64,000 bases of DNA from IMG/VR virus record IMGVR_UViG_3300021389_000015, positions 1-64,000 of that record; one strand, 5' to 3'. A model generated the notes under the pieces. The model did not search any database and was not told where the DNA came from. It saw nothing but the letters and a program-made list of their open reading frames with translations. Positions 19,350-58,139 of the stretch are shown here, piece by piece (the first letter of the stretch is position 1; each line of letters opens with the position of its first letter). The DNA is from a virus. The position numbers and the translations under genes were made by a program.

Positions 19350-19638
19350 TTTAACCTTATACACACAAGATAATTGTGGTTATTGTCATCTTTTAAAGAA
19401 GAAACTCGCCGAATGGGACTTTAGGTATAGAGAAATAAATATAAGTTATGATCTATTTGCTAAAGATTTCATGAAAGAAAAAGGCCATAGAACAGTTCCA
19501 CAGTTGTACTGGAATAACATTCATTTAAATAAACTTCCAACAACAGAGCTTACTAAAGAACACATAGAAGCCGAGATTGATTATGATAACTACGTAGGTG
19601 GAGTAGAAAATTGGGGAACAACAAGAGCATCGCAATAG
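19333..19638 (+). CDS. Glutaredoxin
   Basis: 101 aa thioredoxin-fold protein with the redox motif CGYC at 15-18 and the cis-proline segment TVPQ near 57-60, followed by the helix expected in glutaredoxins. It could supply electrons to a ribonucleotide reductase (none is in this window). It overlaps gp44 by 17 bases and the next gene by 28, so it belongs to the clamp-loader transcript. Confidence 0.88.
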   Translation: MYSSINLTLYTQDNCGYCHLLKKKLAEWDFRYREINISYDLFAKDFMKEKGHRTVPQLYWNNIHLNKLPTTELTKEHIEAEIDYDNYVGGVENWGTTRASQ

Positions 19639-20807
19639 TAGGTGGCGGTGTTGCCGGAATTACTACTGCATATTTCTTAGCCAAAAAATATAAAGTAAGA
19701 TTGTTTGATCCTAATGGTATAGCTGAACAGTGTAGTTATGCCAATGGCGGTCAATTGTCTGTTTGTAACGCAGAAGTTTGGAATACTTATAGTAACATTG
19801 CTAAAGGTTTTAAATGGTTGACGCAACCAGATGCTCCTCTTGCTTTTCGACCTGATGTCTGGTCATGGCCTAAGATAAGATGGATTGCTGGATTCATTGG
19901 TGCAACTATAACTAACAAATATGATTATAATACTCGTAAGACAATAGAATATAGCTTAAGATCTAGAAAGCTTATGAAGAAAATGATGAAGGAAGTCGGC
20001 ATTGACTTTCATCATAATGACTGTGGTATATTACACATATATAAGAATCAAAAGTCATGGGTTAAAGCACAAAGAACTCTTGAAAGATTTAAAGATACTG
20101 GATGGGGTAGAGTTAAAACTAAAACTAATTTAATAAAGTATAATATTAAATCAAATGATGTTGTTGGTGCTACTTTAACTAAAGGTGACTCAGTAGGAGA
20201 CATACATAGTTTCTGTCAAAACTTATCTAGCTATATGATGCAAGATCCTAAGTATGATTACAGCTTTCGTATTAATAAAATTGTTCGAACTGAAGATGAA
20301 GTATTTTGGTCAAATCCGAGAGATATGGCTTTTAGTTTAACAAAACTTAAGAAAGACTTTGATGAAGTTATTGTTTGTGCTGGCGCTTATACACCACACT
20401 TAGTTCCAAGTATAAATGTATATCCTATCAAAGGTTATTCTATAACTTATCAAAATGCGTATGAAGGTCCAACAATCTCTGTACTCGATGATGATAGAAA
20501 AATAGTTGCATCACCATTTTCAAATAATGTTTTCAGAGTGGCAGGTACTGCTGAACTTGCTGATTGGAATCATAGTATAAGAAAAGATAGAATCAAACCT
20601 TTAGCTGACTGGGTAGAACAAAATACGTTTATTAAAAGAGATGATTATAAAAGATGGGCATGCTTAAGGCCAATGACGCCTAACATGTTACCAGTAATAA
20701 GTAAAGTAAAAGGCCTATGGGTTAACACAGGTGCAGGTCATCTAGGTTGGACTATGGGCATGGCTTTAGCAGAAAGGCTAGCAAATGATTTGCAAAGACG
20801 TAAATGA
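19611..20807 (+). CDS. FAD-dependent D-amino acid dehydrogenase/oxidase (DadA-like)
   Basis: 398 aa. A Rossmann FAD motif GGGVAG at 11-16, the YANGGQLS segment and the C-terminal GHLGWTMGMALAERL (about 378-392) are the marks of the DadA small-subunit/glycine oxidase (DAO) family. It would oxidatively deaminate a small amino acid. The TTG start has GGAG eight bases upstream. It lies between glutaredoxin and SHMT with overlaps on both sides. The substrate is not known; DadA resemblance is stronger than to ThiO or SoxB. Confidence 0.85.
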   Translation: MGNNKSIAIVGGGVAGITTAYFLAKKYKVRLFDPNGIAEQCSYANGGQLSVCNAEVWNTYSNIAKGFKWLTQPDAPLAFRPDVWSWPKIRWIAGFIGATITNKYDYNTRKTIEYSLRSRKLMKKMMKEVGIDFHHNDCGILHIYKNQKSWVKAQRTLERFKDTGWGRVKTKTNLIKYNIKSNDVVGATLTKGDSVGDIHSFCQNLSSYMMQDPKYDYSFRINKIVRTEDEVFWSNPRDMAFSLTKLKKDFDEVIVCAGAYTPHLVPSINVYPIKGYSITYQNAYEGPTISVLDDDRKIVASPFSNNVFRVAGTAELADWNHSIRKDRIKPLADWVEQNTFIKRDDYKRWACLRPMTPNMLPVISKVKGLWVNTGAGHLGWTMGMALAERLANDLQRRK

Positions 20808-21927
20808 TATATTACAGAAAGAAATATACAGACAAGATACTACTATTGAACTAATTGCCAGTGAAAACTTTGCAAGTCAAGCTGTAATGGATTTATGTGG
20901 AAGTGTATTTACTAATAAGTATGCAGAAGGTTATTCTGGTAAAAGATACTATAATGGTTGTGAACATATGGACGAGATAGAAGATTTAGCTATAAATCAA
21001 GTAACTCAATTATATGGTTGCGAATTTGCTAATGTACAACCTCATTCCGGTGTAAATGCAAATACTGCGGTGTACCAAGCATTTATGAAACCCGGCGATG
21101 TTATTATGGGTATGGACTTAGCAAGTGGTGGTCATTTATCTCATGGTGCTCCACCGACATTAAGTGGAAAAGTATACAACAGTGTTACGTACGGTGTTGA
21201 CGAACATGGTTATTTAGATTATGAAGTTATAAGAGGATTAGCCAAGATAAGTAGACCTAAAGTAATTGTTGCAGGTGCAAGTGCTTATCCAAGACAAATA
21301 GATTGGAAAGCATTTAGAGATATTGCTGACGGTGTAGGTGCAGTACTAGTAGTAGATATGGCACACTATAGTGGATTAGTAGCAGGTGGTGTATATCTAA
21401 ATCCTTTACCTTATGCTGATGTTGTAACAAGCACTACTCACAAAACATTACGAGGTCCAAGAGGTGGAATGATTTTGTGGAATAATCCTGATTATACGAA
21501 AAGAATAAATAGTTCTATATTTCCTGGAACACAAGGTGGTCCACTTATGAATATCATTGCAGCTAAAGCTCAATGTTTTATAGAAGCAAACACCGATGAA
21601 TTTAAAAAATATTCTGAACAGGTAATCTCAAATGCTCGAGCAATGGCATTGCAATTAAATCAATACGGTATGAAAGTATTAACTGACGGCACGGACAGCC
21701 ATATAATATTATTAGATTTAAGTGATAGCAAAAGGTCAGGTAGAGAAGCTGCTGACTTACTTGAAGAAAATGGAATAACAGTAAACAAAAATGGAGTTCC
21801 AAATGATCCTCGTAACTTTGTTGAAACCAGTGGCATAAGAATTGGTACTGCTGCAGAAACTACTAGAGGAAATGTAGAGTACTGGTTCAGAGAACTAGCA
21901 CAAAAAATAGTGAGAATTATAAAATGA
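20785..21927 (+). CDS. glyA: Serine hydroxymethyltransferase
   Basis: 380 aa PLP enzyme converting serine plus tetrahydrofolate to glycine plus 5,10-methylene-THF. Key parts are visible: ELIASENFAS (22-31), NKYAEGYSGKRYYNGC (44-59), Asp191/His194 (VVDMAHYSG) and the PLP lysine Lys220 in TSTTHKTLRGPRGG. It is somewhat shorter than bacterial GlyA (about 415-430 aa), mostly at the C-terminus. Methylene-THF is the donor for the ThyX and dCMP hydroxymethylase encoded later in the window. Overlaps DadA-like by 23 bases. Confidence 0.96.
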   Translation: MICKDVNDILQKEIYRQDTTIELIASENFASQAVMDLCGSVFTNKYAEGYSGKRYYNGCEHMDEIEDLAINQVTQLYGCEFANVQPHSGVNANTAVYQAFMKPGDVIMGMDLASGGHLSHGAPPTLSGKVYNSVTYGVDEHGYLDYEVIRGLAKISRPKVIVAGASAYPRQIDWKAFRDIADGVGAVLVVDMAHYSGLVAGGVYLNPLPYADVVTSTTHKTLRGPRGGMILWNNPDYTKRINSSIFPGTQGGPLMNIIAAKAQCFIEANTDEFKKYSEQVISNARAMALQLNQYGMKVLTDGTDSHIILLDLSDSKRSGREAADLLEENGITVNKNGVPNDPRNFVETSGIRIGTAAETTRGNVEYWFRELAQKIVRIIK

Positions 21928-26103: not shown

Positions 26104-28590
26104 ATGTCATTTTACACTAACGTATTACGCTATAAAAACTATATACTTCACCGGGGTTATCATAACAACGGTGAAAGGTTTATGCGTAAAGAATATTTCC
26201 AGCCAACACTATTTGTTTCTTCTAAGAAGAAAGAAGGCTGGACTGGATTCGATGGTCAGGATGTTGCACCATTACAATTTGAAAGTATGTTTGAAGCTAA
26301 TCAATGGTTAAAGCAAAACATTGATGTATCTGGTAGAAACATATATGGTAATAAAAAATTTACACAACAATTCGTTACCGAAAAATATCCACGTGATATT
26401 GAATTTAAACGTGAGTTTATTAATGTAGGTACTATTGATATTGAAACAGATTATGATACTGGCTTTCCACATCCTAACGAGGCAAGTCAAAAGATACTTG
26501 CTATAACCTATAAGTCAAGTAAGTTCTCTACGTACCATGTATGGGGTTACGGTGAATTTGATACTACTAAAGCTCTTATTACTGATGTCAAATACATTAG
26601 ATGTAATAGTGAAGAAGAACTTCTCAGTAAGTTTTTAGAATTCTGGTCACATCCTGATATTACTCCAGATGTTATTACTGGTTGGAATACAAGGTTTTTT
26701 GATATACCTTACATCGTAAATCGTATGGCAAAAGTTTTAGGCATACAAGAAATTCAAAAGCTATCACCATGGAATATGCAACTCGAACATAGAAGAATTA
26801 CAAAACGTGGTAGTGAAAATGATGTATATGAAATACCCGGCATACAAACTCTTGATTACATGGAATTGTTTCAAAAGTTTGGTTATACATATGGTCCACA
26901 AGAATCATATGCATTAAATCATATTGCTTATGTTGTACTTGGTGAAAAGAAACTTTCTTATGAAGAATCAGGTTCACTTAAAAATCTATATAAAGATGAT
27001 CACCAAAAGTACATTGACTATAACATGAAAGATGTTCAATTAGTTGACAGGCTCGAAGAAAAGATGGCTCTTATTACATTGGCCTTAACCATAGCTTACA
27101 AAGGTGGTGTTAATTACCAAGATACTTTTGGTGTTACTGCTATATGGGAATCAATCATATATCGTAAATTAAACTTAAGTAAAGTAGTTGTACCTTTAAG
27201 TAACAATGAAAAACCATATAGGTCTTTTGCTGGCGGTTATGTTAAAGAACCACAAGTTGGTAGACACGATTGGATAGTATCTTTTGATTTAAATTCATTA
27301 TATCCAAACTTAATTGTGCAATACAATATGTCACCAGAAACTTTAACCGACAATACTCATATGAATGATGTTGGTTATTATCTTAGCGGTCAAAGCGTTG
27401 ATAGTGAATATTCAGTTGCAGCAAATGGTTCTTCTTATCGTAAAGACATTGATGGTGTATTACCACAAATCATTGAAGAATATTATGATGAACGTGTGTC
27501 TGTAAAGAAAATGCAAATTGCTTCTCAAAAAGAAATACAAAACGGTTACACTACACAACTCGATAAAGAAATAGTTACACTTGAAAATAAACAGTTGGCT
27601 ATAAAAATTCTACTTAATAGTCTTTATGGTGCATTAGGCAACAAACACTTTCATTACTTTGATATTAGACTTGCTGAAGGTGTAACTTTATCCGGTCAGC
27701 TTGCAATTCAATGGGCAGAAAAAGCAATGAATGCTGCAATGAATAAATTACTTAACACTGAAAAAGATTATGTTGTAGCAATTGATACGGATTCTTTATA
27801 TGTTAACTTTGGTCCATTAGTTAAAGAACTATCTCCAGCAAATCCAGTTTCTTTCTTAGATAAAATTTGTAATGAACACTTTGAACCTGTATTACAAAAA
27901 GCATATGAAAAGTTATTTCGAAATATGAATGCTCATAAGAATAGAATGGTCATGGCTAGAGAAGGTATATCTGATAGTGGCATATGGACTGCAAAGAAAA
28001 GATACATTCTAAATGTTCATAATAATGAAGGCATTCAATATAAAGAACCTAAACTTAAAATCATGGGTATTGAAGCTATTAAGTCATCAACACCTGAAGT
28101 TGTACGTGATAAATTTAAGAAAGCATTCAACCTAATTATATCTGGTACTGAAGCTGAAACACAAAGATTTATTCAAGATTTTCGTAATGAATTTAAAACA
28201 CTTTCACCTGAACAGGTTGCTTTTCCAAGAAGAGTATCTAACATTACTGATTGGTATGATCACAAAACTATTTACAAGAAAAGTTGTCCTATACATGTTC
28301 GTGGTTCACTACTCTTCAATAAGTATTTAAAGTCTAATAAATTACAAAATAAATATGAATTGATCACTAACGGTAATAGAATAAAATTCTGTTATCTTAA
28401 GTTACCTAATTCGATCAAAGAAAATGTTATTGCTTTTCAAGATGCATTACCTAAAGAATTAAAATTACATAACTATGTAGACTATGATTTGCAATTTAAT
28501 AAAACATTTATAGAACCACTTAATTTAATATTACATTCTATCGGCTGGTCTGCCGAAGAACAAACTACCTTGGAGGATTTTTTCGTATGA
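26104..28590 (+). CDS. 43: DNA polymerase gp43 (family B)
   Basis: 828 aa replicative polymerase with 3'-5' exonuclease (T4 gp43 898 aa). Exo I Asp112/Glu114 (GTIDIETD), polymerase motif A SFDLNSLYPN near 393-402, motif B KILLNSLYGALGN near 501-513 and motif C DTDSLY near 562-567. The C-terminus ends LEDFFV, a hydrophobic PIP-like tail for the gp45 clamp. The start abuts the upstream stop without a clear ribosome site. Confidence 0.98.
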   Translation: MSFYTNVLRYKNYILHRGYHNNGERFMRKEYFQPTLFVSSKKKEGWTGFDGQDVAPLQFESMFEANQWLKQNIDVSGRNIYGNKKFTQQFVTEKYPRDIEFKREFINVGTIDIETDYDTGFPHPNEASQKILAITYKSSKFSTYHVWGYGEFDTTKALITDVKYIRCNSEEELLSKFLEFWSHPDITPDVITGWNTRFFDIPYIVNRMAKVLGIQEIQKLSPWNMQLEHRRITKRGSENDVYEIPGIQTLDYMELFQKFGYTYGPQESYALNHIAYVVLGEKKLSYEESGSLKNLYKDDHQKYIDYNMKDVQLVDRLEEKMALITLALTIAYKGGVNYQDTFGVTAIWESIIYRKLNLSKVVVPLSNNEKPYRSFAGGYVKEPQVGRHDWIVSFDLNSLYPNLIVQYNMSPETLTDNTHMNDVGYYLSGQSVDSEYSVAANGSSYRKDIDGVLPQIIEEYYDERVSVKKMQIASQKEIQNGYTTQLDKEIVTLENKQLAIKILLNSLYGALGNKHFHYFDIRLAEGVTLSGQLAIQWAEKAMNAAMNKLLNTEKDYVVAIDTDSLYVNFGPLVKELSPANPVSFLDKICNEHFEPVLQKAYEKLFRNMNAHKNRMVMAREGISDSGIWTAKKRYILNVHNNEGIQYKEPKLKIMGIEAIKSSTPEVVRDKFKKAFNLIISGTEAETQRFIQDFRNEFKTLSPEQVAFPRRVSNITDWYDHKTIYKKSCPIHVRGSLLFNKYLKSNKLQNKYELITNGNRIKFCYLKLPNSIKENVIAFQDALPKELKLHNYVDYDLQFNKTFIEPLNLILHSIGWSAEEQTTLEDFFV

Positions 28591-29009
28591 GTACAAACTG
28601 GTTTAAAGATATGCAGGACATGCATATAAAATATGGTGTCAACAAATGGGTACAAGCCGAAAAGCAAAGTGATGTAGAGATTAAAAGATTTAATCAATTC
28701 ATGGACTTTAGAATTAACATGATGCAAGAAGAACTTGATGAAACAAGAAATGCATTTATCAATAAAGATCCTGAAGAAATAGTTGATGGCATTATTGATC
28801 TATGTGTGTTTGCCATCGGTACACTCGAAGTATTTGGTGTTGATGCTAATAAAGCATGGGATGAAGTATATAAAGCCAATATGAATAAAGAAGTTGGAAT
28901 AAAAGAAGGTAGGCCTAATCCACTTGGATTACCAGATTTAGTAAAGCCTAAAGGTTGGAAAGGTCCATCACACGAGAATAATCATGGAAATATCTCTGAC
29001 TCTTTTTAA
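28587..29009 (+). CDS. MazG-like nucleotide pyrophosphohydrolase, possible dCTPase
   Basis: 140 aa all-alpha NTP-PPase. The metal-binding pattern is EELDE (48-52) followed by EEIVDGIIDL (63-72). It hydrolyses a nucleoside triphosphate to the monophosphate. As the phage encodes a gp42-type dCMP hydroxymethylase, a role like T4 gp56 (dCTP to dCMP) is attractive, but a general MazG or HisE-like activity is also possible. ATGA overlap with gp43. Confidence 0.75.
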   Translation: MSTNWFKDMQDMHIKYGVNKWVQAEKQSDVEIKRFNQFMDFRINMMQEELDETRNAFINKDPEEIVDGIIDLCVFAIGTLEVFGVDANKAWDEVYKANMNKEVGIKEGRPNPLGLPDLVKPKGWKGPSHENNHGNISDSF

Positions 29010-31464: not shown

Positions 31465-31683
31465 ATGGTTAAGTTTGATAATATATTTTATGTAGGTGAT
31501 ACCGTTGAAACTAAACACGGTCTAAATAAGATTGTTAAAATAGAGTTAATGCCTGAACCAAGACATTACTCTAAGTGTGGAATAAATGTAGAAAAAATGT
31601 TTACAAACATGAAAAACTATTGTATAATAGATCTAGATAACAAACATTTTGTATATGGAGATGAGGTAGAATTATGCCGATAA
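31465..31683 (+). CDS. Small hypothetical protein with beta-barrel look
   Basis: 72 aa from ATG at 31465, preceded by AAAGGGGAT. Pattern GDTVETKHGLNKIVKIEL then YCIIDLDNKHFVYGDEVEL suggests a small SH3-like barrel. It contains an internal promoter at 31600-31628 serving the downstream nucleotide genes. Confidence 0.5.
   Translation: MVKFDNIFYVGDTVETKHGLNKIVKIELMPEPRHYSKCGINVEKMFTNMKNYCIIDLDNKHFVYGDEVELCR
31600..31628 (+). promoter_or_regulatory. Internal promoter ahead of the dCMP hydroxymethylase operon
   Basis: TTTACA (31600-31605), 17-base spacer, TATAAT (31623-31628), located inside the preceding coding sequence. It would drive the operon starting at 31674. Confidence 0.75.
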
Positions 31684-32015
31684 TAGATAGAAAAGAATCC
31701 GTTGCAGTCCTACAAGAATGTATGGACTTACAACTCAGAAAATCCAAAGATTATCAAAGCGATACATCTAATGTAACACAATCAATGCATTATCGTAGAG
31801 GTGTGGATACAATCCATGACATCATCATCGGTAAGCTTATGCGTGCTACATCACTACTTGAGTCTGGTAATAATCCAAACTTCGAATCACTCGAAGATAC
31901 TTACAAAGATATGATTAACTATGCATCCTTTGCAGTATCATATATGCGTGGTAAAATGGATGGCCAGAATCCAAAGCACGATATGTTCAATAAGCCTAAA
32001 GGTCCTAAAATATGA
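31674..32015 (+). CDS. Nucleotide-modification-associated domain 1 / DUF1599-like protein
   Basis: 113 aa helical protein. Residues about 14-90 show a pattern of the Nmad1/DUF1599 family: LRKSKDYQSD, HYRRGVDTIHDIIIGKLMRATSLLES and NFESLEDTYKDMINYASFAVSYM. The family is often found next to phage nucleotide-modifying genes. It overlaps the dCMP hydroxymethylase by four bases (ATGA). The biochemical role is not known. Confidence 0.7.
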   Translation: MPIIDRKESVAVLQECMDLQLRKSKDYQSDTSNVTQSMHYRRGVDTIHDIIIGKLMRATSLLESGNNPNFESLEDTYKDMINYASFAVSYMRGKMDGQNPKHDMFNKPKGPKI

Positions 32016-32689
32016 TGAATAGCGTAGATGATATAAGAAATTTATTTAAGTCTAAACTTCTTAATGAAAAGTTTACTATTGATAGAACTGGCCAAAAAAC
32101 TATTGAACATATCGGTGCATCTTTCTTAGCTGATCAACCTTCAATCTTTGGTGCACCTAATAAAAAATATATTGAAAAAGAATTACGATGGTACAAGAGT
32201 CAAATCACTAATGTAAATGCTATTGATGATAAAGTTCCAGAAGCATGGCAATACGCTGCAAACGATTATGGTGAAATTAATTCTAACTACGGTCAGATAA
32301 TATTCTCTGATAAATACTATCACCAGTATGGTAGAGTGCTAGATGAACTACTAGAAAACCCTGATGGTCGTAGAGCTTCAATGATATACAATCGTCCAAG
32401 TATATGGGAGGAATACAATGAAAATGGTAAGAGTGATTTCATATGTACTAATGCCGTTACCTATTACATACGTGATGATAAACTACACTGTGTTGTTCAA
32501 ATGCGCTCTAACGATGTCGTGTACGGATATAAGAATGACTATGCTTGGCAGCTTTCTATTTTAGAAGAATTAGTCGAAGATTATAATCAATGTAAGAAAG
32601 AGACAATAGAGCCTATTACGTATGGTGATGTAATATGGCAAGTACAAAACTTGCATGTTTATGAAAGGCATTTTCATCTTGTCAAATAA
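32012..32689 (+). CDS. 42: dCMP hydroxymethylase gp42-like
   Basis: 225 aa thymidylate-synthase-fold enzyme (T4 gp42 246 aa). The segments IDRTGQKTIEHIGASFLADQ, EINSNYG, SDFICTNAV, MRSNDVVYGYKNDYAWQ and LHVYERHF closely follow T4 gp42. The nucleophile is Cys145 (T4 Cys148), and Asp176 takes the place of the Asn that selects dUMP in ThyA, as Asp179 does in T4 gp42, indicating dCMP as substrate. The enzyme makes 5-hydroxymethyl-dCMP from dCMP and methylene-THF. It lacks the last 20 residues of T4 gp42. Confidence 0.93.
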   Translation: MMNSVDDIRNLFKSKLLNEKFTIDRTGQKTIEHIGASFLADQPSIFGAPNKKYIEKELRWYKSQITNVNAIDDKVPEAWQYAANDYGEINSNYGQIIFSDKYYHQYGRVLDELLENPDGRRASMIYNRPSIWEEYNENGKSDFICTNAVTYYIRDDKLHCVVQMRSNDVVYGYKNDYAWQLSILEELVEDYNQCKKETIEPITYGDVIWQVQNLHVYERHFHLVK

Positions 32690-33119
32690 ATGGGATAAAA
32701 GATTTCTAGAAATGGCAAAGCTTGTGGCCTCATGGTCAAAAGATCCATCAACGCAAGTTGGTTCAGTTGCTGTAAGAAATAGAACAGTTATAGCTCAAGG
32801 TTATAATGGTTTTCCTAGAGGTGTGGATGACCATGAATTATATTATTTAAATAAAGCAATAAAATATAAACGTATAGTTCATGCAGAAATGAATGCAATT
32901 TATAATGCAGCAGAAAATGGTGTGTCATTAAAAGGTTCTACAATCTATGTAATAGGTTTACCAATATGCCATGATTGTGCAAAAGGTTTAATTCAAGCAG
33001 GCATAAGTAGAGTAGTAACGCCAGAACAAGAGATACCAGAAAACTGGCAAGATTCAATAACAAGTTCAATATCAATGTTTAAAGAGGCAGGTGTAGTATG
33101 GGACTGGATAAAGTATTAG
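32655..33119 (+). CDS. cd: dCMP deaminase
   Basis: 154 aa zinc deaminase. HAEMNAI (His76, Glu78) and PICHDC (Cys105, Cys108) are the zinc and catalytic residues. It turns dCMP to dUMP for ThyX. The ATG at 32655 overlaps gp42 by 35 bases; a TTG at 32682, giving MSNKWDKRFLEMAKLVASWS with AAAGG upstream, is the more natural start. T4 Cd is 193 aa, so this is a compact form. Confidence 0.93.
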   Translation: MFMKGIFILSNKWDKRFLEMAKLVASWSKDPSTQVGSVAVRNRTVIAQGYNGFPRGVDDHELYYLNKAIKYKRIVHAEMNAIYNAAENGVSLKGSTIYVIGLPICHDCAKGLIQAGISRVVTPEQEIPENWQDSITSSISMFKEAGVVWDWIKY

Positions 33120-33475
33120 TAGTTGGACATAGTCCGGGTAAAACACCCATAAATAAAATGAAGAATGGATCACCAACACTTAATAGGCTAAACCTTTGGC
33201 TCGATGCATGTGAGGTAGATCTATACAGCTTCAGTAACATCTATGCACACCACAAGGAATCTCTGAAAATAGCCGATATCGATGGAATATATGTCTCTAA
33301 AATAGCCGAAAATTATAATAAAATTATAACATTAGGCGGTTTTGTGTCACAATATTTCACTAAAAGGGGTATAAAACACTTTGCTGCTCCACACCCCTCG
33401 CCACGTAATAGAAAGTTTAATAATAAATCGTATGAACCTATGGTTATAAATCAATTGAAGGAGTATTTAAAATGA
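33098..33475 (+). CDS. Uracil-DNA-glycosylase-like protein
   Basis: 125 aa, about half the size of classic UDG. GHSPGKTP (10-17) takes the place of the water-activating loop and PHPSPRNRKFN (98-108) resembles the UDG minor-groove loop HPSP. ITLGGFVSQYF provides the central strand. It is likely a member of the UDG superfamily acting on a modified or damaged base, but the catalytic Asp/His of motif A is not evident. Confidence 0.6.
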   Translation: MGLDKVLVVGHSPGKTPINKMKNGSPTLNRLNLWLDACEVDLYSFSNIYAHHKESLKIADIDGIYVSKIAENYNKIITLGGFVSQYFTKRGIKHFAAPHPSPRNRKFNNKSYEPMVINQLKEYLK

Positions 33476-34752
33476 AAGTAGGAGTCTTATTAGGTAGAGG
33501 TGTTGAAGGCGTAGGCTTGACTAAGAATGTAGTTGAGTTTCAAAAGCTTTTCCCTGGTGTAGAAGTATTTGCTACTATTGATAAATTATGGCAAAGAATG
33601 AACTCTATGGACTTTAAAGTAAATTACTTTAGAGGTACAGATTGGGATGAAGTTAGTAAACCATCAAAGAAATTTCCAGATTTATTAACATGTTCAAAGG
33701 TTGTTGAAAGAATCAATCAACTCGACATGTGCATTGTTTGGAGTGTACCATCTAAATCTCATCCAGAAGATTGTATAAGTAACTTTATAAAGATGATGGA
33801 TGAAATTAAAGTACGTAAGTCTTTAGTTCAGGTAGACCATAAAATACATTCTATAAATAGGAATGCCGGCTTAGCTGAAATATGTTCTAAAGTCGATGTA
33901 TTAATGTGTCATTATATAGATAACCCTTTTGGTAAATGGGTTAAAAAGAACAAGATTAAAACACCAATCACAAATATGGGTGTAGGATTCAATTTTAATA
34001 AAGATTATTGGAAACCTATTGAACAACAAAATCCTTATTATGTAAGATGGGTAGGTCGTACCGCTATGTGGAAAGGACCAGACGTAATGATTGATTTCCA
34101 CAATGATCATCTTTGCAAAAATCATTTCATTACAATACTTGAAGGTTTAGAAGCTTCGATAAATTACCCTGCAGTTCTTTATAAAAATCCAAAGGAAATG
34201 ACGGGTCGAAGACAAGTGGTGAATTACTTTAGACCTGAGAAAGGTATTGATAATACCGGTAAACATCCTGTCTATGGTGCTGAAACAACAAATCAAGGTG
34301 CGTACTTGTATGGTGCATATACACACAGTGAAATGATGGAAAGAATGAGTTTAGGTGGATTTGGTTCTGACCTTATGTATTTTAAAGAAGACATATATGG
34401 TGATAACGTAGAGTACTGCCACACTGATTCATTTGCAGCAGGTGTAATACCTTTATTCCATAAACACTTCTGTGATCATGTAATACACAGAAAGCAAGGT
34501 AAGCCTATAAGTCAATGTAAAGATACAGGCACATTAGCTGTTGATGCATCAAGTGCGCAAGCAGTTTGTTCGCAAATGATTGTCCTTGCAAATGATAAAG
34601 TAATGAGAGATGAATGGAGAAACATGATGTATGAGTTTTGGAAAGAACACTGTGATGCTGAAACGGTATATAATGACATCATAAGTAGTACACTAAATTA
34701 TAATGAAAAGTACAACGTTAATGAAACAACACTGGAGGAATTTTTCGTATGA
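33472..34752 (+). CDS. agt: DNA alpha-glucosyltransferase-like (T4 AGT homologue)
   Basis: 426 aa GT-B enzyme (T4 AGT 400 aa). Parallels with T4 AGT as I recall it include the N-terminus MKVGVLLGRGVEGVGLTK, RWVGRTAMWKGPDVMIDFH near 190-208, ILEGLEAS, HSEMMERMSLGGFGSDL and VEYCHTDSFAAGVIPLF. T4 AGT adds glucose to 5-hydroxymethylcytosine in DNA. The gene follows gp42 and dCMP deaminase and precedes a sugar-nucleotide epimerase, so a different sugar donor is possible. The C-terminus LEEFFV resembles the gp43 tail and the clamp-binding tail of T4 AGT. Confidence 0.88.
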   Translation: MKVGVLLGRGVEGVGLTKNVVEFQKLFPGVEVFATIDKLWQRMNSMDFKVNYFRGTDWDEVSKPSKKFPDLLTCSKVVERINQLDMCIVWSVPSKSHPEDCISNFIKMMDEIKVRKSLVQVDHKIHSINRNAGLAEICSKVDVLMCHYIDNPFGKWVKKNKIKTPITNMGVGFNFNKDYWKPIEQQNPYYVRWVGRTAMWKGPDVMIDFHNDHLCKNHFITILEGLEASINYPAVLYKNPKEMTGRRQVVNYFRPEKGIDNTGKHPVYGAETTNQGAYLYGAYTHSEMMERMSLGGFGSDLMYFKEDIYGDNVEYCHTDSFAAGVIPLFHKHFCDHVIHRKQGKPISQCKDTGTLAVDASSAQAVCSQMIVLANDKVMRDEWRNMMYEFWKEHCDAETVYNDIISSTLNYNEKYNVNETTLEEFFV

Positions 34753-35507
34753 AAATAGCACTAACTGGATCACGTGGCTTTATAGGTAGCCACTTAAAAA
34801 CAAGACTTGAAAATGATGGACATGAAATAGTGGAATGGGATTTAAAACTAGATCCGGAAAAATCTATAAAAGATTTTGATATACGACAAATACATGAAGC
34901 AAGTTATGTAATTCATCTTGCTGCATATGCTGATGTAAGAGCGAGTTTGGAAGATCCTCAAAGATATTGGGATAATAATGTAGAAAATACTAAACGTATT
35001 CAAAAGGTATGTAACTATAATAATATACCTTTATTGTATGCATCTTCTTCTTGTATACATAACTGGTGGTTATCGCCTTATGGAATAAGTAAAAAAGTAA
35101 ATGAAGCAACCGCATTTGATCATCAGGTTGGATTAAGATTCACAACCGTATATGGCGATGGTGCTAGAGAATCTATGCTTATTGGTAAACTTATTGATGG
35201 TTCAATTGCTTATCTTACAAGACACGTAAGAGACTTTGTACACGTCAGTGATGTAGTAGACGCAATAGTATTATTAATGAGTAAAGATATTAGAACACTT
35301 AAGCCAGCATATGATATTGGTACAGGTGTAGGAAATGTAGTTATGGATCTTGGAATACTTGCAGGATGGGAAGGTATCGAAATAAGAGATGGTGATCCTT
35401 GTGAGGCACAAGATAATACTGCAGATATTTCAGAAATGAAAGCTTTAGGTTGGGAACCAAAAGTTAAAGTAGATGAGTACGTTGTAAAACACACGGTGCC
35501 ACACTAA
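34749..35507 (+). CDS. NAD-dependent sugar-nucleotide epimerase/dehydratase
   Basis: 252 aa short-chain (extended SDR) enzyme: NAD motif GSRGFIG at 7-13, LAAYADVRASLEDP, and the YGISK catalytic pair Tyr111/Lys115. Shorter than GalE (about 335 aa). ATGA overlap with the glucosyltransferase suggests it prepares the sugar donor for DNA modification, for example by epimerising a UDP-sugar. Substrate not determinable from sequence. Confidence 0.85.
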   Translation: MKIALTGSRGFIGSHLKTRLENDGHEIVEWDLKLDPEKSIKDFDIRQIHEASYVIHLAAYADVRASLEDPQRYWDNNVENTKRIQKVCNYNNIPLLYASSSCIHNWWLSPYGISKKVNEATAFDHQVGLRFTTVYGDGARESMLIGKLIDGSIAYLTRHVRDFVHVSDVVDAIVLLMSKDIRTLKPAYDIGTGVGNVVMDLGILAGWEGIEIRDGDPCEAQDNTADISEMKALGWEPKVKVDEYVVKHTVPH

Positions 35508-36703
35508 TGAATTATGCAAGTATAGTACCACTTATAGGTGGTGAAACAATTGCTATGCAAAATGTTTTTAAAAAGAAACCGGAGTACATATTAAGTTATG
35601 AAGACTTTAAAGCAAACGATACACACTTGGTTGAATATTATAAAGGACAAGTCCCCTACTATCTTTTGGGAAATAACAGGTCATACGACTTGCCTTCTGT
35701 CGATGTTGTTAATACCGTATGTCCTTGTGCTGGCTTGTCTAGTCTCAATACTTCAGCATCTTCTGATGCTGCTGCTAACGATTGGATGTCTACCTCTGCT
35801 AATTATGTCTTGGGTACACTCAAACCTAAAGTATTCTGGGGCGAAAACGCACCAAGACTTGCTTCAAAGATGGGAGAGCCTGTTGTTGAAGGTCTCAGGG
35901 AAATTGGAAAACAGCATGGTTACACTTTCTCATTATATAAAACGAAGTCTCTCCTTCATGGACTCGGACAAGTAAGAGATAGATCTTTTTATTTCTTTTG
36001 GAAAGGTAGTAAAATACCACAACTTAGTTATGTAAAGAGAAGTCATACTAAGATTGAAGATACTATAAGATCAACTCAAAACAATTCTGATGATCCTATG
36101 AATGTTCTTACTAACAAAGCAACACCGTCTGATGATCCTTATTATAGATATGTACTTGAAGAACTTGAAGGTGGCATAACTCATAATGAATTTCAAAACA
36201 AAATCAAAAAGAGTTATGATGTTCTTCATTACATTGAAGATAAGAAAGTACCTTACAGCGAAGTGAGTCATTGGATGTCATCTAATGGTTTTGAAAAACA
36301 AGCACAAAGATGCAAGGTTATGCATGATAAATTAACCGGTGGCGGTAACATCATGAGAAGAGGTGTGTACGTACCAAAAGATTATATTGGAGCTTTTGTA
36401 GGTAGTGCACCAACTAAACTAACACATCCTGATATTGATAGACATCTCACAATAAGAGAATGTTTAAACATAATGGGATTACCTAATGACTTTATGTTAC
36501 AAGGTGGACTTAAAAATTTAAATCATATTTGTCAAAATGTGCCAGTTACAACTGCAACTGACATGGCTGAGAATGTTTTAAGGTTTTGTGATGGCAGATT
36601 AGATAACCAATTATGGGATATGGATTTCATGATTCAAGACAATAAAAATCAATCGATAATTAGTGAAAATAAACCTTTACAATTAGACGAATTTATGGTA
36701 TAA
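35507..36703 (+). CDS. C5-cytosine DNA methyltransferase-like protein
   Basis: 398 aa. Motif I is degenerate (VPLIGGETIAMQ), motif IV reads CPCAGLS (Cys74), motif VI WGENAPR (113-114), motif VIII GQVRDR (154-159), and the C-terminal HPDIDRHLTIRECLNIMGLP fits motifs IX-X. All marks of the Dcm family are present, with an unusual motif I. Acting on DNA that may hold hydroxymethylcytosine is puzzling. The last codons contain the uvsX promoter. Confidence 0.75.
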   Translation: MNYASIVPLIGGETIAMQNVFKKKPEYILSYEDFKANDTHLVEYYKGQVPYYLLGNNRSYDLPSVDVVNTVCPCAGLSSLNTSASSDAAANDWMSTSANYVLGTLKPKVFWGENAPRLASKMGEPVVEGLREIGKQHGYTFSLYKTKSLLHGLGQVRDRSFYFFWKGSKIPQLSYVKRSHTKIEDTIRSTQNNSDDPMNVLTNKATPSDDPYYRYVLEELEGGITHNEFQNKIKKSYDVLHYIEDKKVPYSEVSHWMSSNGFEKQAQRCKVMHDKLTGGGNIMRRGVYVPKDYIGAFVGSAPTKLTHPDIDRHLTIRECLNIMGLPNDFMLQGGLKNLNHICQNVPVTTATDMAENVLRFCDGRLDNQLWDMDFMIQDNKNQSIISENKPLQLDEFMV

Positions 36704-36730: not shown

Positions 36731-37774
36731 ATGTCAATAATGGATAAACTTAAGAAGAACAGTAAAGTAGATTACACATCTATACTTGCTGATTCTAAAT
36801 TTTTTAATGATAAAGATATGGTACCAACAGATGTACCTATGATCAACGTGGCTTTATCAGGTTCAATGGACGGTGGCATATCGCCTGGCCTGACAGTTTT
36901 AGCTGGTCCATCAAAACACTTTAAAACTTCATTTGCTTTAATTATGGCAAGTGCTTATTTAAAACAATATGATGATTCTGTATTACTATTTTATGATTCA
37001 GAGTTTGGTTCACCTCAATCATATTTCGAAAACTTTGGCATCGATACTACAAGAGTTTTACACACTCCTATCACAAATGTTGAAGAACTTAAATTTGACA
37101 TGATAGCACAACTTGAAGGTTTAGATAGAAAAGATAAAGTTGTAATTGTAATTGATTCAATCGGTAACCTTGCTTCTAAAAAAGAATTAGACGATGCAAT
37201 AAATGAAAAATCAGTTGCTGATATGTCAAGAGCAAAAGCACTTAAAGGTTTATTTAGAATGGTAACACCATATTTGAATATGAAAGACATACCTCTACTT
37301 GCTGTTAATCATACTTACCAAGAAATTGGATTGTTTCCAAAAGCTGTAGTTTCTGGTGGTACTGGTATTTACTACAGTGCAGATAATATCTGGATTCTTG
37401 GCAGGCAACAAGATAAAGTTGGTACAGAAATCAAAGGTTATCACTTTGTAATTAATGTAGAAAAATCAAGGTTTGTAAAAGAAAAATCTAAAATACCAAT
37501 ATCAGTAAGTTGGGATGGCGGTGTACAACACTGGTCAGGTTTACTTGATGTAGCAATGACAGGTAACTACGTAGCCAAGCCTTCAGCTGGTTGGTACTGT
37601 AGAGTTGATAAATCTACTGGTGAATTAATTGATCCTAAAGTTAGAGAAAAAGATACTCTTAACGAAGAGTTTTGGAAACCTATAATAGAAGAAACTGACT
37701 TCAAACAATTTGTCACTAATAAGTATTCGATACTTAACAATGTGGTAGATCTTGAAAAGATGGATCAGCACTAA
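36731..37774 (+). CDS. uvsX: RecA-like recombinase UvsX
   Basis: 347 aa. Walker A GPSKHFKTS at 59-67 has the atypical T4 form, and VVIVIDSIGNL provides Walker B. It catalyses strand exchange for recombination-dependent replication with UvsY (11519-11965). T4 UvsX is 391 aa. Followed directly by a conserved small gene. Confidence 0.95.
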   Translation: MSIMDKLKKNSKVDYTSILADSKFFNDKDMVPTDVPMINVALSGSMDGGISPGLTVLAGPSKHFKTSFALIMASAYLKQYDDSVLLFYDSEFGSPQSYFENFGIDTTRVLHTPITNVEELKFDMIAQLEGLDRKDKVVIVIDSIGNLASKKELDDAINEKSVADMSRAKALKGLFRMVTPYLNMKDIPLLAVNHTYQEIGLFPKAVVSGGTGIYYSADNIWILGRQQDKVGTEIKGYHFVINVEKSRFVKEKSKIPISVSWDGGVQHWSGLLDVAMTGNYVAKPSAGWYCRVDKSTGELIDPKVREKDTLNEEFWKPIIEETDFKQFVTNKYSILNNVVDLEKMDQH

Positions 37775-38254: not shown

Positions 38255-39611
38255 TTTAGAACAAACTATATTACGTAATCTATTAACTGATGAAGATTAC
38301 ATGCGTAAAGTATTACCATTCATCAAGCCGGATTACTTTGAAGGTATATATCGAGTACTGTTTCGTGAAGCAGGCAAGTTTGTTGCTAAATACAATAAGC
38401 TACCAAATGCTGAAGCGTTTAAGATTGAACTAGATGGTGCCGATAAATTAAATGATGAACAATATAATTTGGCTATGGACATTGTACCGCAATTGTATTC
38501 TACTGAAAAGGTAGATGATAAGTGGTTGTTAGACACTACAGAAAAATGGTGTCAAGACCGTGCAATATATCTTGCAATCATGGAATCAATATCAATCATT
38601 GATGGAAAGCATGAACAACTAACTAAAGGTGCTTTACCGGATTTATTGACTAAAGCTTTAGGTGTTGGATTTGATTTGCAAGTCGGTCACGACTATGTAG
38701 AAAATGCTGAAGATAGATTTAAATTTTATCATACAGAAGAAGATAGGTTGCCATTTGATTTAGAATACTTTAATACTATTACAAAAGGTGGTGTACCACG
38801 TAAAACATTAAATATTGCGCTGGCCGGCACTGGTGTCGGTAAGTCTTTGTTTATGTGTCATGTAGCTGCATCATCTTTAGTACAAGGTCAAAATGTATTA
38901 TACATTACTATGGAAATGGCTGAAGAAAGAATAGCAGAAAGAATAGATGCAAACTTACTTGATGTACCTATTGATCAACTCGATAAAATATCAAAAGACA
39001 GGTTTTCTTTAATGGTGAATAACATTGCAAAGAAAACTACTGGTAAACTTATAATAAAAGAATATCCGACTGGCTCTGCACATTCCGGTCATTTTAGAGC
39101 ATTACTTAATGAACTGAAATTGAAAAGACAATTTGAACCAGACTTAATCTTTATTGATTACTTAAATATATGTGCAAGTTCTAGAATGAAAGGAATGGGT
39201 GGTGCAATTAATTCATACTCTTACATTAAAGCAATTGCTGAAGAATTACGTGGCCTTGCGGTCGAGTTTGACGTACCGATCTTCTCTGCAACGCAAACGA
39301 CTCGTAGTGGTTATTCTAACTCGGATGTTGGCCTTGAAGATACCAGTGAGTCTTTTGGATTACCCGCAACAGCGGACTTAATGTTTGCACTAATATCTAC
39401 CGAAGAACTTGAACAACAAGGTCAGTTTATGGTAAAACAATTAAAGAATAGATACAATGATCCTACATTACATAAAAGATTTGTAGTCGGCGTTGATAGA
39501 TCAAAGATGAGATTATTTGATGTAGAAGAAAACGAACAAACATTAACCGATGATACACCAGTATTTGATAACACTACAACCGGTCAAAGATTTAAGGATT
39601 TTAAGTTATGA
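38244..39611 (+). CDS. 41: Replicative helicase gp41 (DnaB-like)
   Basis: 455 aa (T4 gp41 475 aa). N-terminal helical domain, Walker A GTGVGKS near 194-200, the DnaB segments VLYITMEMAEERIAERI and LIFIDYLNI, and SATQTTRSGY. Hexameric 5'-3' helicase of the replisome. Coupled to thyX by overlap. Confidence 0.95.
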   Translation: MPTNLEQTILRNLLTDEDYMRKVLPFIKPDYFEGIYRVLFREAGKFVAKYNKLPNAEAFKIELDGADKLNDEQYNLAMDIVPQLYSTEKVDDKWLLDTTEKWCQDRAIYLAIMESISIIDGKHEQLTKGALPDLLTKALGVGFDLQVGHDYVENAEDRFKFYHTEEDRLPFDLEYFNTITKGGVPRKTLNIALAGTGVGKSLFMCHVAASSLVQGQNVLYITMEMAEERIAERIDANLLDVPIDQLDKISKDRFSLMVNNIAKKTTGKLIIKEYPTGSAHSGHFRALLNELKLKRQFEPDLIFIDYLNICASSRMKGMGGAINSYSYIKAIAEELRGLAVEFDVPIFSATQTTRSGYSNSDVGLEDTSESFGLPATADLMFALISTEELEQQGQFMVKQLKNRYNDPTLHKRFVVGVDRSKMRLFDVEENEQTLTDDTPVFDNTTTGQRFKDFKL

Positions 39612-40294
39612 TGAAAGCAAGACTTATAAGCTATTCTCAACCTACTGATATAATTGGAGTAGATGATATACAAGATCTTATTGCATTTTCTGCAAGAGTT
39701 AGTAATCCATCTAATCAAATGAATAAAGCAACTAATGATAAATTATTAAATTATCTTATGAAACATAAACATTGGTCACCTTTTGAAATGGTAAGTGCTT
39801 GTATTGAGATTGATACTACTCGAGATATCGCTAGACAAATATTGAGACATAGAAGTTTTAGTTTCCAAGAATTTAGTCAAAGATATGCTGATCCAGTTAA
39901 AGAGTTAAATATGGCTGTTACTACTGAGTGTAGATTGCAAGACAGTAAAAATAGACAAAATAGTATAGAAATAGATGACAGTGATGAAAGAGCAACATTA
40001 ACTCACGAATGGATTAAAGCACAAAGTGAAGTGATACTTGCAGCAAAACGAGCTTATGAGTTTGCTATTGATAGAGGTATTGCTAAAGAAGTAGCACGTA
40101 AAGTTTTACCTGAAGGATTGACTTCATCAAGACTCTATGTGAACGGTACCATAAGAAGTTGGATTCATTTTATAGAATTAAGATCTGCGAATGGTACTCA
40201 GAAAGAATGCACTGAGGTAGCTTTAGCGTGTGCACAAGCAATATCAAAAATATTTCCAATGATTAAAGGGTTCACAAATGAAAGAAGATTATAA
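39608..40294 (+). CDS. thyX: FAD-dependent thymidylate synthase ThyX
   Basis: 228 aa. Signature RHRSFSFQEFSQRY near 80-93, and the C-terminal NGTIRSWIHFIELR region. ThyX methylates dUMP using methylene-THF and reduced FAD and releases THF, so no dihydrofolate reductase is needed. With dCMP deaminase it provides dTTP; with the phage SHMT it can share a THF cycle. Confidence 0.96.
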   Translation: MMKARLISYSQPTDIIGVDDIQDLIAFSARVSNPSNQMNKATNDKLLNYLMKHKHWSPFEMVSACIEIDTTRDIARQILRHRSFSFQEFSQRYADPVKELNMAVTTECRLQDSKNRQNSIEIDDSDERATLTHEWIKAQSEVILAAKRAYEFAIDRGIAKEVARKVLPEGLTSSRLYVNGTIRSWIHFIELRSANGTQKECTEVALACAQAISKIFPMIKGFTNERRL

Positions 40295-42886: not shown

Positions 42887-43447
42887 ATGAATATTTTTAT
42901 ACTAGACAAAAACCCAGTTACGGCTGCTGAAATGCTGTGTGACCGACATGTTCCAAAAATGATTGTGGAATCTGGTCAAATGCTTAGTACTGCACACAGA
43001 TTGCTCGATGGCATACCAGAAAAGCGTAGGTCTAAATCTGGCAAAACTATACAAACATACTTCTCGTTTGGCGATAAACGTGATGATGTCTTTTATGCAG
43101 CAGTGCATAAGTATCATCCATGTACTACATGGACATTAGCATCTAAACAAAACTATGAATGGCACTATGAACACTTTATTGCAATGTGTGATGAATTTCA
43201 ATACAGGCGTGGTAAAGTACATAAGACATTTGAAGTTCTAGGAAAAGCACTTAAAAAAACACCGATAAATATACCAGATGTTGGATTAACGGAGTTTGCT
43301 CAAGCTATGTCTCATTATCCTGATTGTATAGTTGAAGGTGATGCTGTAAAAGCATATCGTAACTATTATCATATGGCTAAGTCATTTGCCAAATGGGATT
43401 GGAAAAGGCCTGCTCCACATTGGTGGAAAGGATACCAAGGTGCCTAA
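42887..43447 (+). CDS. Pyrimidine-dimer DNA glycosylase family protein (Pyr_excise-like)
   Basis: 186 aa. The pattern NIFILDKNPVTAAEMLCDRHVPKMIVESGQMLSTAHRLLDG, YHPCTTWTLASKQNYEWHYEHF and a C-terminal AYRNYYHMAKSFAKWDW-RPAPHWW is a widespread phage family annotated with the T4 endonuclease V (DenV) domain. It may excise UV dimers or another base lesion. DenV itself is 138 aa, so the match is to the family rather than to DenV. Confidence 0.65.
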   Translation: MNIFILDKNPVTAAEMLCDRHVPKMIVESGQMLSTAHRLLDGIPEKRRSKSGKTIQTYFSFGDKRDDVFYAAVHKYHPCTTWTLASKQNYEWHYEHFIAMCDEFQYRRGKVHKTFEVLGKALKKTPINIPDVGLTEFAQAMSHYPDCIVEGDAVKAYRNYYHMAKSFAKWDWKRPAPHWWKGYQGA

Positions 43448-45824: not shown

Positions 45825-46598
45825 ATGAAAAATTTAGTATTCCAATATTATATACCTTATGAATCTTTTGACGCTGATATGGGTGGTGTTAGAATGCCTG
45901 AATGGGCAAATGCAGGTTCACGTTCGGCAAAAGCTTATGCTGATTTTTGCAGTGCTGAGTACGAACTATCACATGAAAGATTCTTTCAAGAGCTTGATCC
46001 AAGACTCGATTCAATAAAAATAATATTCGATGAGAAATATGATGAGTATGATAATATACTTTCGATAGATCTTGACATGTTGATACATGCAGATGTAGAT
46101 GAAAATATATTTGAAGACAGGATTGATGATGTTGCAATGGTGCATGAAAGACACGTACATACGGGTGGACCAGCACGTTGGCTTTCAAACGTAATGTATA
46201 AACCTCTGTGGCAAAGAGGCATAGTAGCTTATGGTAAACACCTATGGGGTGATGACTGGATGTTTCCAAAGAGTGCGATTTATCCAGACGAAAAATTTAG
46301 ATATTTAAATGGAGGTCTACAACTTTGGTCAAAACAAGGTAGGCTTAAAGCACGTAAACATTTTACGTCAGTTGACCATTACGTACTTCACACGAGATAT
46401 ACTGAACAAATGTATATCAATCTACAATTATCACAACCAATATTCAATGTCATTGAGCTTGATACTCAATGGAACAGAATGCCGTATCAATGGCACGGTG
46501 GAAAACCTGACGGAAAGATTAATCATTTCTTGGCAAGAACTAAATTTGATATGCCGAGACTAGAACATACGGAGTTAAGTATATGGCAAAATTCTTAG
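45825..46598 (+). CDS. Glycosyltransferase-like protein (GT-A)
   Basis: 257 aa. The D-x-D motif lies in ILSIDLDMLIHAD (about 78-90), and FRYLNGGLQLWSKQG is the typical acceptor-side strand of GT8-like proteins. Begins the glycan island. Substrate unknown. Confidence 0.68.
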   Translation: MKNLVFQYYIPYESFDADMGGVRMPEWANAGSRSAKAYADFCSAEYELSHERFFQELDPRLDSIKIIFDEKYDEYDNILSIDLDMLIHADVDENIFEDRIDDVAMVHERHVHTGGPARWLSNVMYKPLWQRGIVAYGKHLWGDDWMFPKSAIYPDEKFRYLNGGLQLWSKQGRLKARKHFTSVDHYVLHTRYTEQMYINLQLSQPIFNVIELDTQWNRMPYQWHGGKPDGKINHFLARTKFDMPRLEHTELSIWQNS

Positions 46599-47188
46599 AA
46601 ATAGCAGCAGAAAAACCGAGAGGTTTAACTTGGGATGTTATGAACTTAGCAACTCATGCAGGTGTAGTCAAAGGTGACGCAACAAATATGCCATTACCAT
46701 ATAGCGATAATGAATTTTACGGTGTATATTCTGAACATTTTATAGAGCACTTATACAAATATCAAGGCATAAATTATTTTAAAGATGTATTGCGAATATT
46801 AAAACCCGGCGGTATAGTAAGAACAGTATGGCCTCCATATGAATTTATAGATTTGTTAGTAAGTAAAGAAGATCTTACACCCGATCAAAATGAATTTGTA
46901 GAGCACTATTACAATTTCTACATCGTAAGAGAAAAGTTTTCACCACCCGGAAATACGCACAGGTCTAAACGTGAGCAATGTGCATTAGGTTTACTATATC
47001 AAAAAGGACAACATTTATATCTCTGGTCAAAAGTTGAAATGATGAATATGTTAAATGAAATTGGTTATACTAACGTAAAGCTTATGAATTATCAAGACAG
47101 CAGCTTACTTGATTTTAAAAATATAGACACACCCGGAAAAATACGTGCATTGCATTCTGCCGTTATTGAGGCAAGTAAACCTTGGTAA
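46583..47188 (+). CDS. SAM-dependent methyltransferase (type 11)
   Basis: 201 aa. GDATNMPLPYSDNEFYGVYSEHFIEHLY followed by YFKDVLRILKPGGIVRTVWPP matches the post-I and motif II-III parts of Methyltransf_11 proteins. The N-terminal glycine loop is short, the protein starting just before it. It may methylate a sugar made by the neighbouring genes. Confidence 0.75.
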   Translation: MAKFLEIAAEKPRGLTWDVMNLATHAGVVKGDATNMPLPYSDNEFYGVYSEHFIEHLYKYQGINYFKDVLRILKPGGIVRTVWPPYEFIDLLVSKEDLTPDQNEFVEHYYNFYIVREKFSPPGNTHRSKREQCALGLLYQKGQHLYLWSKVEMMNMLNEIGYTNVKLMNYQDSSLLDFKNIDTPGKIRALHSAVIEASKPW

Positions 47189-47454
47189 TTGTAATTAAAT
47201 ACGATGGCCGTCAACAATTGTTTCATCACTATTGGTTGCCTCTCATATATAAACACCAAGAATGTACATTTATTGTAGAAGACAATACTGGAAAAATGAT
47301 ATATCCAAGTGATGTATCTAATCTTAATGTTACTAAAGAAGTTGACAAAGATAAATTGAAGAAACCAGTAATGCATTGTAATATAGATCGTGTTCCTACT
47401 TACAGAACTATGATTGATTTTAATCACCAAGTTTTTTATGAGGTACCATTATGA
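47182..47454 (+). CDS. Small hypothetical protein in the glycan island
   Basis: 90 aa from a TTG overlapping the previous stop. Pattern RQQLFHHYWLPLIYKHQECTF then FIVEDN; ends FNHQVFYEVPL. No recognised family; coupled to the UGM gene by an ATGA overlap. Confidence 0.45.
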   Translation: MVIVIKYDGRQQLFHHYWLPLIYKHQECTFIVEDNTGKMIYPSDVSNLNVTKEVDKDKLKKPVMHCNIDRVPTYRTMIDFNHQVFYEVPL

Positions 47455-49318: not shown

Positions 49319-49319
49319 C

Positions 49320-52961: not shown

Positions 52962-52968
52962 GATCATT

Positions 52969-57980: not shown

Positions 57981-58139
57981 ATGTGGGGAAGACTCATTGA
58001 ATACACGGGTGGTAATGAATACAAACCACCTCAGTCAAAAAGGAGAAAGATTATGACACCCAACCCGCACTACATCAATATGATGATTAATATCGGTATC
58101 TTTGGTATGTTAATATACGTAGCTGTGCAAGTATCTTAA
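57981..58139 (+). CDS. Small membrane protein (52 aa)
   Basis: AGGAGGATAAC before the ATG. Begins MWGRLIEYTGGNEYKPPQSK and ends with a hydrophobic span INIGIFGMLIYVAVQVS. An internal ATG at 58053 with AAAGGAGAAAG could give a shorter form. TAATG overlap with the following gene. Confidence 0.6.
   Translation: MWGRLIEYTGGNEYKPPQSKRRKIMTPNPHYINMMINIGIFGMLIYVAVQVS

Follow-up and report, generated by a model that had tools for sequence, protein, structure and literature searches.

The window analysed here, a 64,000-base stretch of DNA comprising bases 1-64000 of the 73,320-base IMG/VR virus record IMGVR_UViG_3300021389_000015 (itself a fragment), carries at 31674-36703 a block of genes that very likely encodes a pathway for the glycosylation of 5-hydroxymethylcytosine (hmC). 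With a probability of roughly 0.8 we regard this block as a T4-type operon for cytosine hypermodification, in which hmC would be made as a nucleotide and then glycosylated in the DNA by enzymes docked on the sliding clamp. Its genes, all on the + strand, are in order an NMAD1/DUF1599 protein, a dCMP hydroxymethylase, a dCMP deaminase, a uracil-DNA-glycosylase (UDG)-like protein, a homologue of the T4 DNA alpha-glucosyltransferase (AGT), an SDR protein and a C5-cytosine-methyltransferase (C5-MTase)-like protein. Neighbouring genes overlap by 1-35 bases, and a gap of 27 bases then precedes uvsX. The coordinates and gene calls of the original prediction, which had described the genes as overlapping, were upheld by profile and homology searches. 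The block does not end at 35507, as had been proposed, but runs to 36703 through the C5-MTase-like gene (35507-36703); this gene, the UDG-like open reading frame (ORF; 33098-33475) and the exchangeability of the block had been overlooked. The block cannot be a product of chance, given the E-values and the presence of the same gene order in dozens of other contigs.

The dCMP 5-hydroxymethylase (32012-32689, +) is of the T4 gp42 type, matching T4 gp42 (PDB 1b49) with an E-value of 5.5e-71 compared with 1.9e-7 for the best thymidylate synthase. Asp176 stands in place of the thymidylate-synthase Asn and, like Cys145, is invariant in 16 aligned gp42 homologues, those of XG4 and S-TIM54 included. 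The earlier call of a gp42-type enzyme with Cys145 and the dCMP-selecting Asp176 is therefore exactly right, and that of a dCMP deaminase (32655-33119, +; PF00383 3.3e-22, phrog_174 3.3e-46) also holds. A separate ThyX thymidylate synthase (39608-40294, +; PF02511 1.3e-42) makes dTMP, so that the ThyA-fold gp42 homologue is freed from this task. Serine hydroxymethyltransferase (SHMT; 20785-21927, +; PF00464 1.2e-145) is the likely source of methylene-tetrahydrofolate (methylene-THF) for gp42 and ThyX. It is adjoined by a DAO-type flavin adenine dinucleotide (FAD) oxidoreductase (19611-20807; PF01266 3.8e-43), and the pair may possibly form a one-carbon supply for both enzymes. A MazG-like pyrophosphatase (28587-29009, +; PF01503 6.5e-10) is a candidate dCTPase. 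The annotated ThyA of S-TIM5-type cyanophages (OP053362.1, 145397-146239) carries the dCMP-type Asp, and these cyanophages may therefore be hmC (or 5-methylcytosine) phages.

The DNA alpha-glycosyltransferase (33472-34752, +) proved, as predicted, to be a true homologue of T4 AGT. It scores 114.8 bits against PF11440 (cut-off 25; E 5.9e-33) and matches T4 AGT (1xv5, 2.6e-37) over residues 3-392, nearly the full length. D122-H123, R196, K201 and E314 are kept in an alignment with the AGTs of T6, S-TIM54 and module 2 (described below), and the residue preceding D122 is Val in the window protein and His in T6 AGT. An AGT homologue is encoded by both S-TIM54 and S-TIM5. The window protein ends in TTLEEFFV, which resembles a clamp-binding tail. 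Under a strict criterion of a C-terminal LxxF[FM], such a tail is present on only four of the 109 window ORFs (0.08 expected). These are AGT, the C5-MTase-like protein (LQLDEFMV), the gp43-type DNA polymerase (26104-28590, +; identified by tblastn to gp43 of T4-like phages), whose QTTLEDFFV has canonical PIP-box spacing, and the gp55-type late sigma factor (14053-14637, +; phrog_234 2.5e-51), whose DLSEFML serves as a positive control. The proposed docking partner, the gp45 sliding clamp, is encoded at 17446-18123 (+; PF09116 1.2e-14, phrog_223 8.8e-73). The clamp, the late sigma factor and the major head protein (phrog_138 1.5e-164) mark the record as T4-like, in agreement with the backbone first proposed, and the DNA polymerase is nearest to those of Phage C48C1 (Kyanoviridae, 52.9%) and cyanophages. 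Across related loci the tail was found on AGT (32/32), AGT2 (19/20), C5-MTase (85/96), HMUDK (12/15), HMUDK360 (4/4) and polymerase (56/60). It was absent from gp42 (0/111), deaminase (0/106), NMAD1 (0/97), SDR (0/70), epimerase (0/40), UDP-glucose dehydrogenase (0/43), mutase (0/15), inositol-phosphate synthase (0/18) and UvsX (0/109). T4 alpha-glucosyltransferase has been shown to bind gp45 in vitro (PMC13216743). From the tail we infer clamp docking and hence DNA as the substrate; the tailed module enzymes are thus predicted, from their sequences, to dock on the clamp and act on DNA.

Further evidence came from relatives of the block. A scan of IMG/VR with AGT, C5-MTase and gp42 queries gave 123 non-redundant gp42 loci, including 84 complete cassettes from gp42 to uvsX, and the gene order of the block recurs in the majority of 56 loci with AGT and 80 with C5-MTase. 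Each complete cassette holds one of seven modules and none holds two; the modules were defined on the same loci, so that the fit of every locus is partly by construction, whereas the absence of two-module loci is not. These are AGT with SDR, as in the window (M1, 16 loci); AGT-like protein with UDP-glucose dehydrogenase and epimerase (M2, 12 loci); glycosyltransferase (GT) with UDP-galactopyranose mutase, mostly with SDR (M3, 14 loci); GT with cupin, GDPD-like protein and nucleotidyltransferase/HAD (M4, 6 loci); inositol-3-phosphate synthase with a HAD-like and an HMUDK_hel protein (PF18723; M5, 14 loci); a set of PALP-type pyridoxal-phosphate (PLP) enzymes (M6, 19 loci); and TAGT (PF20691; M7, 3 loci). 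The GDPD-like and HAD-like labels of small module proteins come from reading of the sequences alone. A UDP-xylose synthase identity for the M2 SDR was rejected, its nearest solved relatives being 5u4q and 6zl6.

The right border of the exchangeable block is the UvsX recombinase (36731-37774, +; PF21134 4.8e-12, PF00154 4.9e-8). A UvsX tree of 71 loci shows 23 changes of module label, where 6 would be the minimum, with labels still clustered relative to shuffles; a gp42 tree of 82 loci shows 26. Two loci, L080 (M1) and L138 (M3), have UvsX, gp41 and gp42 that are 99%, 100% and 96% identical, yet the former carries the UDG-like protein and AGT, the latter GT and mutase, and their C5-MTases are 69% identical. 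Since relatives have other modules in place of the sugar module between gp42/deaminase and uvsX, the locus can be seen as a slot into which different DNA decorations fit, which suggests that T4-like phages alter their chemical disguise by swapping one gene block. Plasticity between polymerase and uvsX has already been noted for T4 and RB69 relatives (PMC6024577); what is new here is the modules themselves and their scale. M5 lies beside a dCMP hydroxymethylase in L095 (3441-7252), L109, L136 and L142, and inositol-bearing DNA is possible in such loci; no paper that links inositol with phage DNA modification or hypermodification was found in the literature searched. Stenotrophomonas phage Moby has an inositol-3-phosphate synthase adjoining queuosine-type genes. 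The PLP-enzyme module (PALP, phrog_7093 threonine dehydratase) occupies the same slot, without C5-MTase, in L248 (9087-11923) and L186 (2492-5590), and an amino-type decoration of hmC is possible there.

The 125-residue UDG-like protein (33098-33475, +) is co-exchanged with the sugar module. Its match to PF03167 is sub-threshold (E 0.0038; 17.7 bits against a cut-off of 24.3). An AlphaFold2 model (pLDDT 80.4) has UdgX (6l5b) as its best PDB fold match (probability 1.00, TMq 0.65, E 8.3e-3), UDG motif III (HPS) is present and PHPS is invariant in 11 homologues. No match to the protein was found among isolate phages. Where two loci have closely similar backbones, their UDG-like proteins show an identity of 0.84 if the module is the same and 0.44 if it differs (partial Mantel r 0.61, p 0.001, although the loci share ancestry and the permutation p-values are non-independent tests). 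The corresponding values are 0.85 and 0.68 for C5-MTase (r 0.41) and 0.75 and 0.71 for the deaminase, which served as a control (r 0.06); the module effect is weaker for NMAD1 (r 0.20) and SDR (r 0.27). Divergence of the UDG-like and C5-MTase-like proteins therefore follows the module and not the backbone, and both travel with the decoration.

The C5-MTase-like protein (35507-36703, +) matches PF00145 with 57 bits (cut-off 22; E 2.8e-15) and its AlphaFold2 model (pLDDT 82.7) has the full C5-MTase fold, with Z-scores of 19.3 to M.HaeIII, 19.0 to CmoX and 18.4 to M.HhaI. Catalytic motifs IV, VI and VIII are retained (PCxGLS, ENAP, QxRxR), and C74, E113-N114 and Q155-R157-R159 are invariant. In C5-MTases the motifs that line the S-adenosylmethionine (SAM) pocket have the consensus FxGxGG (I) and GN (X). 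Here both depart from it, reading PL[IV]GG (PLIGG in the window) and [CA]QNVP (CQNVP in the window), and this altered core is invariant in three unrelated phage lineages. CmoX identity was rejected, CmoX Arg350 being replaced by Gln343 and SPPC by VCPC. Among 50,697 phage records the protein occurs in six, five from S-TIM5-type cyanophages and one from Pseudoalteromonas phage XG4, where the gene is adjoined by a gp42-type enzyme, a 559-residue nucleotidyltransferase/phosphotransferase and two GT-like proteins. It was also found on 12 contigs of GTDB species genomes, apparently phage contigs binned in metagenome-assembled genomes (MAGs), at least six of which also encode a gp42 homologue in the part that was read; near the divergent version of L293 (29%), the part read contains no gp42. 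Of the 65 non-M6 complete cassettes 61 have a C5-MTase, and of the 19 M6 loci none does, which rules it out as a constant partner of every hmC module, though it is carried by at least one phage contig of the PLP type that was binned in a MAG (L289).

This enzyme poses a puzzle, namely what its job is where cytosines should already bear a C5 group. One answer, compatible with the T4-kind pathway and in our view somewhat short of an even chance, is that hmC substitution is partial and that the C5-MTase-like protein provides a second protection by methylating, at fixed sites, the cytosines that are left. The retained catalytic motifs and whole fold are consistent with this, as is the failure to find a gp56-type dCTPase in the partial record, and the comparable site-specific CmoX modifies 10% of cytosines in phage S-B43 (PMC12783734). 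Against it stand the invariance of the altered SAM-pocket motifs in three unrelated lineages and the MazG-like protein, which may remove dCTP.

A second question concerns the sugar, which the original prediction had cautioned might not be glucose. The SDR (34749-35507, +; PF01370 8.6e-26), correctly called an epimerase, is a short nucleotide-sugar epimerase-like protein of the extended type (252 residues) with GalE/MoeE5-like solved relatives. T4 is not known to need a phage epimerase. The caution is reasonable in so far as the SDR is present in 16/16 complete M1 loci; the SDR is, moreover, 92% conserved between an M1 locus and an M3 locus where galactopyranose mutase precedes it. This suggests a 4-epimerase making UDP-galactose, and the M1 DNA might then carry galactosyl-hmC. 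The other half of the argument, a UDP-galactopyranose mutase as partner of AGT, is weak. The mutase gene (47451-48455, +; PF03275 1.5e-49) encodes a protein that shares 72% identity with the mutase in the cassette of an M3 locus (L125), and none was found in four other M1 records (fragments of 33-68 kb). It lies in a cluster of GT-like, GT25, methyltransferase-like and mutase genes at 45825-53592, none with a clamp-like tail. Plain glucose on hmC, as in T4, with the SDR and mutase serving other glycans (capsid, lipopolysaccharide) and the C5-MTase-like protein being an ordinary orphan methylase, would suit the clear homology of the AGT to T4 AGT, the GT25-type and other tailless GT-like genes of that cluster and the assignment of such GTs to host O-chain change in a pelagimyophage survey (PMC7029224). 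We think it rather unlikely, given that the SDR lies within the overlapping block, that AGT-like genes of a sister module are accompanied by UDP-glucose dehydrogenase and UDP-sugar epimerase and that the C5-MTase-like gene varies in step with the module. It is very improbable that the ThyA-fold protein acts as a dCMP methylase or ordinary thymidylate synthase and that the AGT homologue glycosylates a non-DNA target: Asn-to-Asp exchange at this position can turn thymidylate synthase into a dCMP methylase (title of Liu and Santi 1992, cited in PMC8670742), but the enzyme is far closer to gp42, ThyX is present, and the AGT, 5-hydroxymethyldeoxyuridine (5-hmdU)-kinase-like and TAGT modules of the slot all belong to hydroxymethyl-base families.

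Several points weigh against the T4-kind hypermodification operon itself. Modification of the virion DNA is deduced from genes and residues. Neither a gp56-type dCTPase (PF08761) nor a gp1-type dNMP kinase (PF21448), both of which the original prediction had proposed to look for elsewhere in the genome, has so far been found in the 73,320-base fragment; PF21448 was likewise not found in six other large or partial records. The tail is absent from GT371 (19 proteins) and GT412 (5) of two sister modules and from T6 AGT, and clamp binding did not set the ratio of alpha to beta glucosylation in T4 (PMC13216743). If all cytosine were hmC the C5-MTase would be left without its ordinary substrate, and replacement may thus be incomplete. 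The definition of modules on the loci they describe and the shared ancestry of those loci, mentioned above, belong here too.

On the operon reading, the residues and homologies suggest that the gp42-type enzyme would make 5-hydroxymethyl-dCMP, probably with methylene-THF from the phage SHMT, while ThyX would make dTMP. The phage polymerase would incorporate hm-dCTP, with MazG perhaps lowering dCTP. AGT, docked on gp45 by its C-terminal LEEFF tail, would then place a sugar on hmC behind the fork. The SDR would remodel the UDP-sugar, possibly giving a galactose-like sugar instead of glucose, and the UDG-like and C5-MTase-like proteins may be partners tuned to the particular modification.

The closest known parallel is the gp42-AGT/BGT-TAGT system of T4 and T6, which shares the Cys and Asp of the hydroxymethylase, the AGT family, the placing of modification genes between polymerase/gp42 and uvsX and, in T4, the binding of alpha-glucosyltransferase to gp45 (PMC13216743). 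The window block differs in its additional SDR, UDG-like and C5-MTase-like genes, in the PIP-like tail of its AGT, in ThyX instead of ThyA and in the missing gp56 and gp1. RB69, Thanatos and the arabinosyl- and pentosyl-hmC phages likewise differ in the sugar genes that their gp43-uvsX plasticity region holds (PMC6024577; PMC12838424), whereas here the AGT family is paired with other UDP-sugar enzymes and there are seven modules, including inositol-phosphate-synthase and PLP-enzyme sets. In the CmoX/CmoA 5-carboxymethylcytosine system of Synechococcus phage S-B43 a C5-MTase fold has also been recruited for DNA hypermodification, and CmoX (8yf3) is among the nearest solved structures of the window protein. 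In the latter, however, the Arg that binds carboxy-SAM (GRMVP in CmoX) is Gln343 (CQNVP), motif IV reads VCPC and not SPPC, and the gene sits near gp42. HMUDK_hel (PF18723) in M5 and PLP enzymes in M6 recall 5-hmdU-derived hypermodification (HMUDK, aGPT-type), but both modules are paired with a dCMP-type and not a dUMP-type hydroxymethylase. Brig1 and Brig3 belong to the UDG superfamily and recognise bases of the hmC type (PMC13160076); they are bacterial defence proteins, in contrast to the small UDG-like phage protein of the window.

The first gene of the block, for the NMAD1/DUF1599 protein (31674-32015, +), matches PF07659 above the cut-off (E 6.5e-7) and its position is conserved in relatives. 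Sigma-70-like promoters in the region numbered 46 compared with 50.2 in shuffles, and no operon promoter is therefore claimed. A PADLOC scan gave nothing beyond generic methyltransferase matches. Elsewhere in the window, a weak pyrimidine dimer DNA glycosylase match lies at 42887-43447 (PF03013 7.2e-4, below cut-off). At 58139-61762, where GC skew falls nearly to zero and the coding strand changes, there are a radical SAM protein, an Asp_Arg_Hydrox protein, a fatty-acid desaturase and unassigned HxD-containing proteins.

Three of these results are surprising: that the modules can be exchanged, that the UDG-like protein is tuned to its module and that a clamp-tailed C5-MTase-like enzyme stands beside a dCMP hydroxymethylase. 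They can be joined in a tentative and, taken whole, doubtful proposal: that a slot beside the replisome genes takes interchangeable hmC modules (no description was found of inositol- or PLP-type modules on hmC) with clamp-docked DNA enzymes, and that the PLIGG...CQNVP subfamily of C5-MTase-like proteins, found with most modules, acts covalently on hmC-DNA by a chemistry that is not SAM methylation, each decoration having a version of this enzyme and of the UDG-like protein to match. If this were true, T4-like phages would change their DNA armour wholesale through a single block of 2-5 kb, the hydroxymethylation frame being retained, and the arms race with modification-dependent restriction would be a matter of module exchange. 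New bases would be predicted, of the inositol-, uronic- or galactofuranosyl-hmC type, and the clamp tail would be a sequence mark for finding DNA-acting enzymes among unknown genes.

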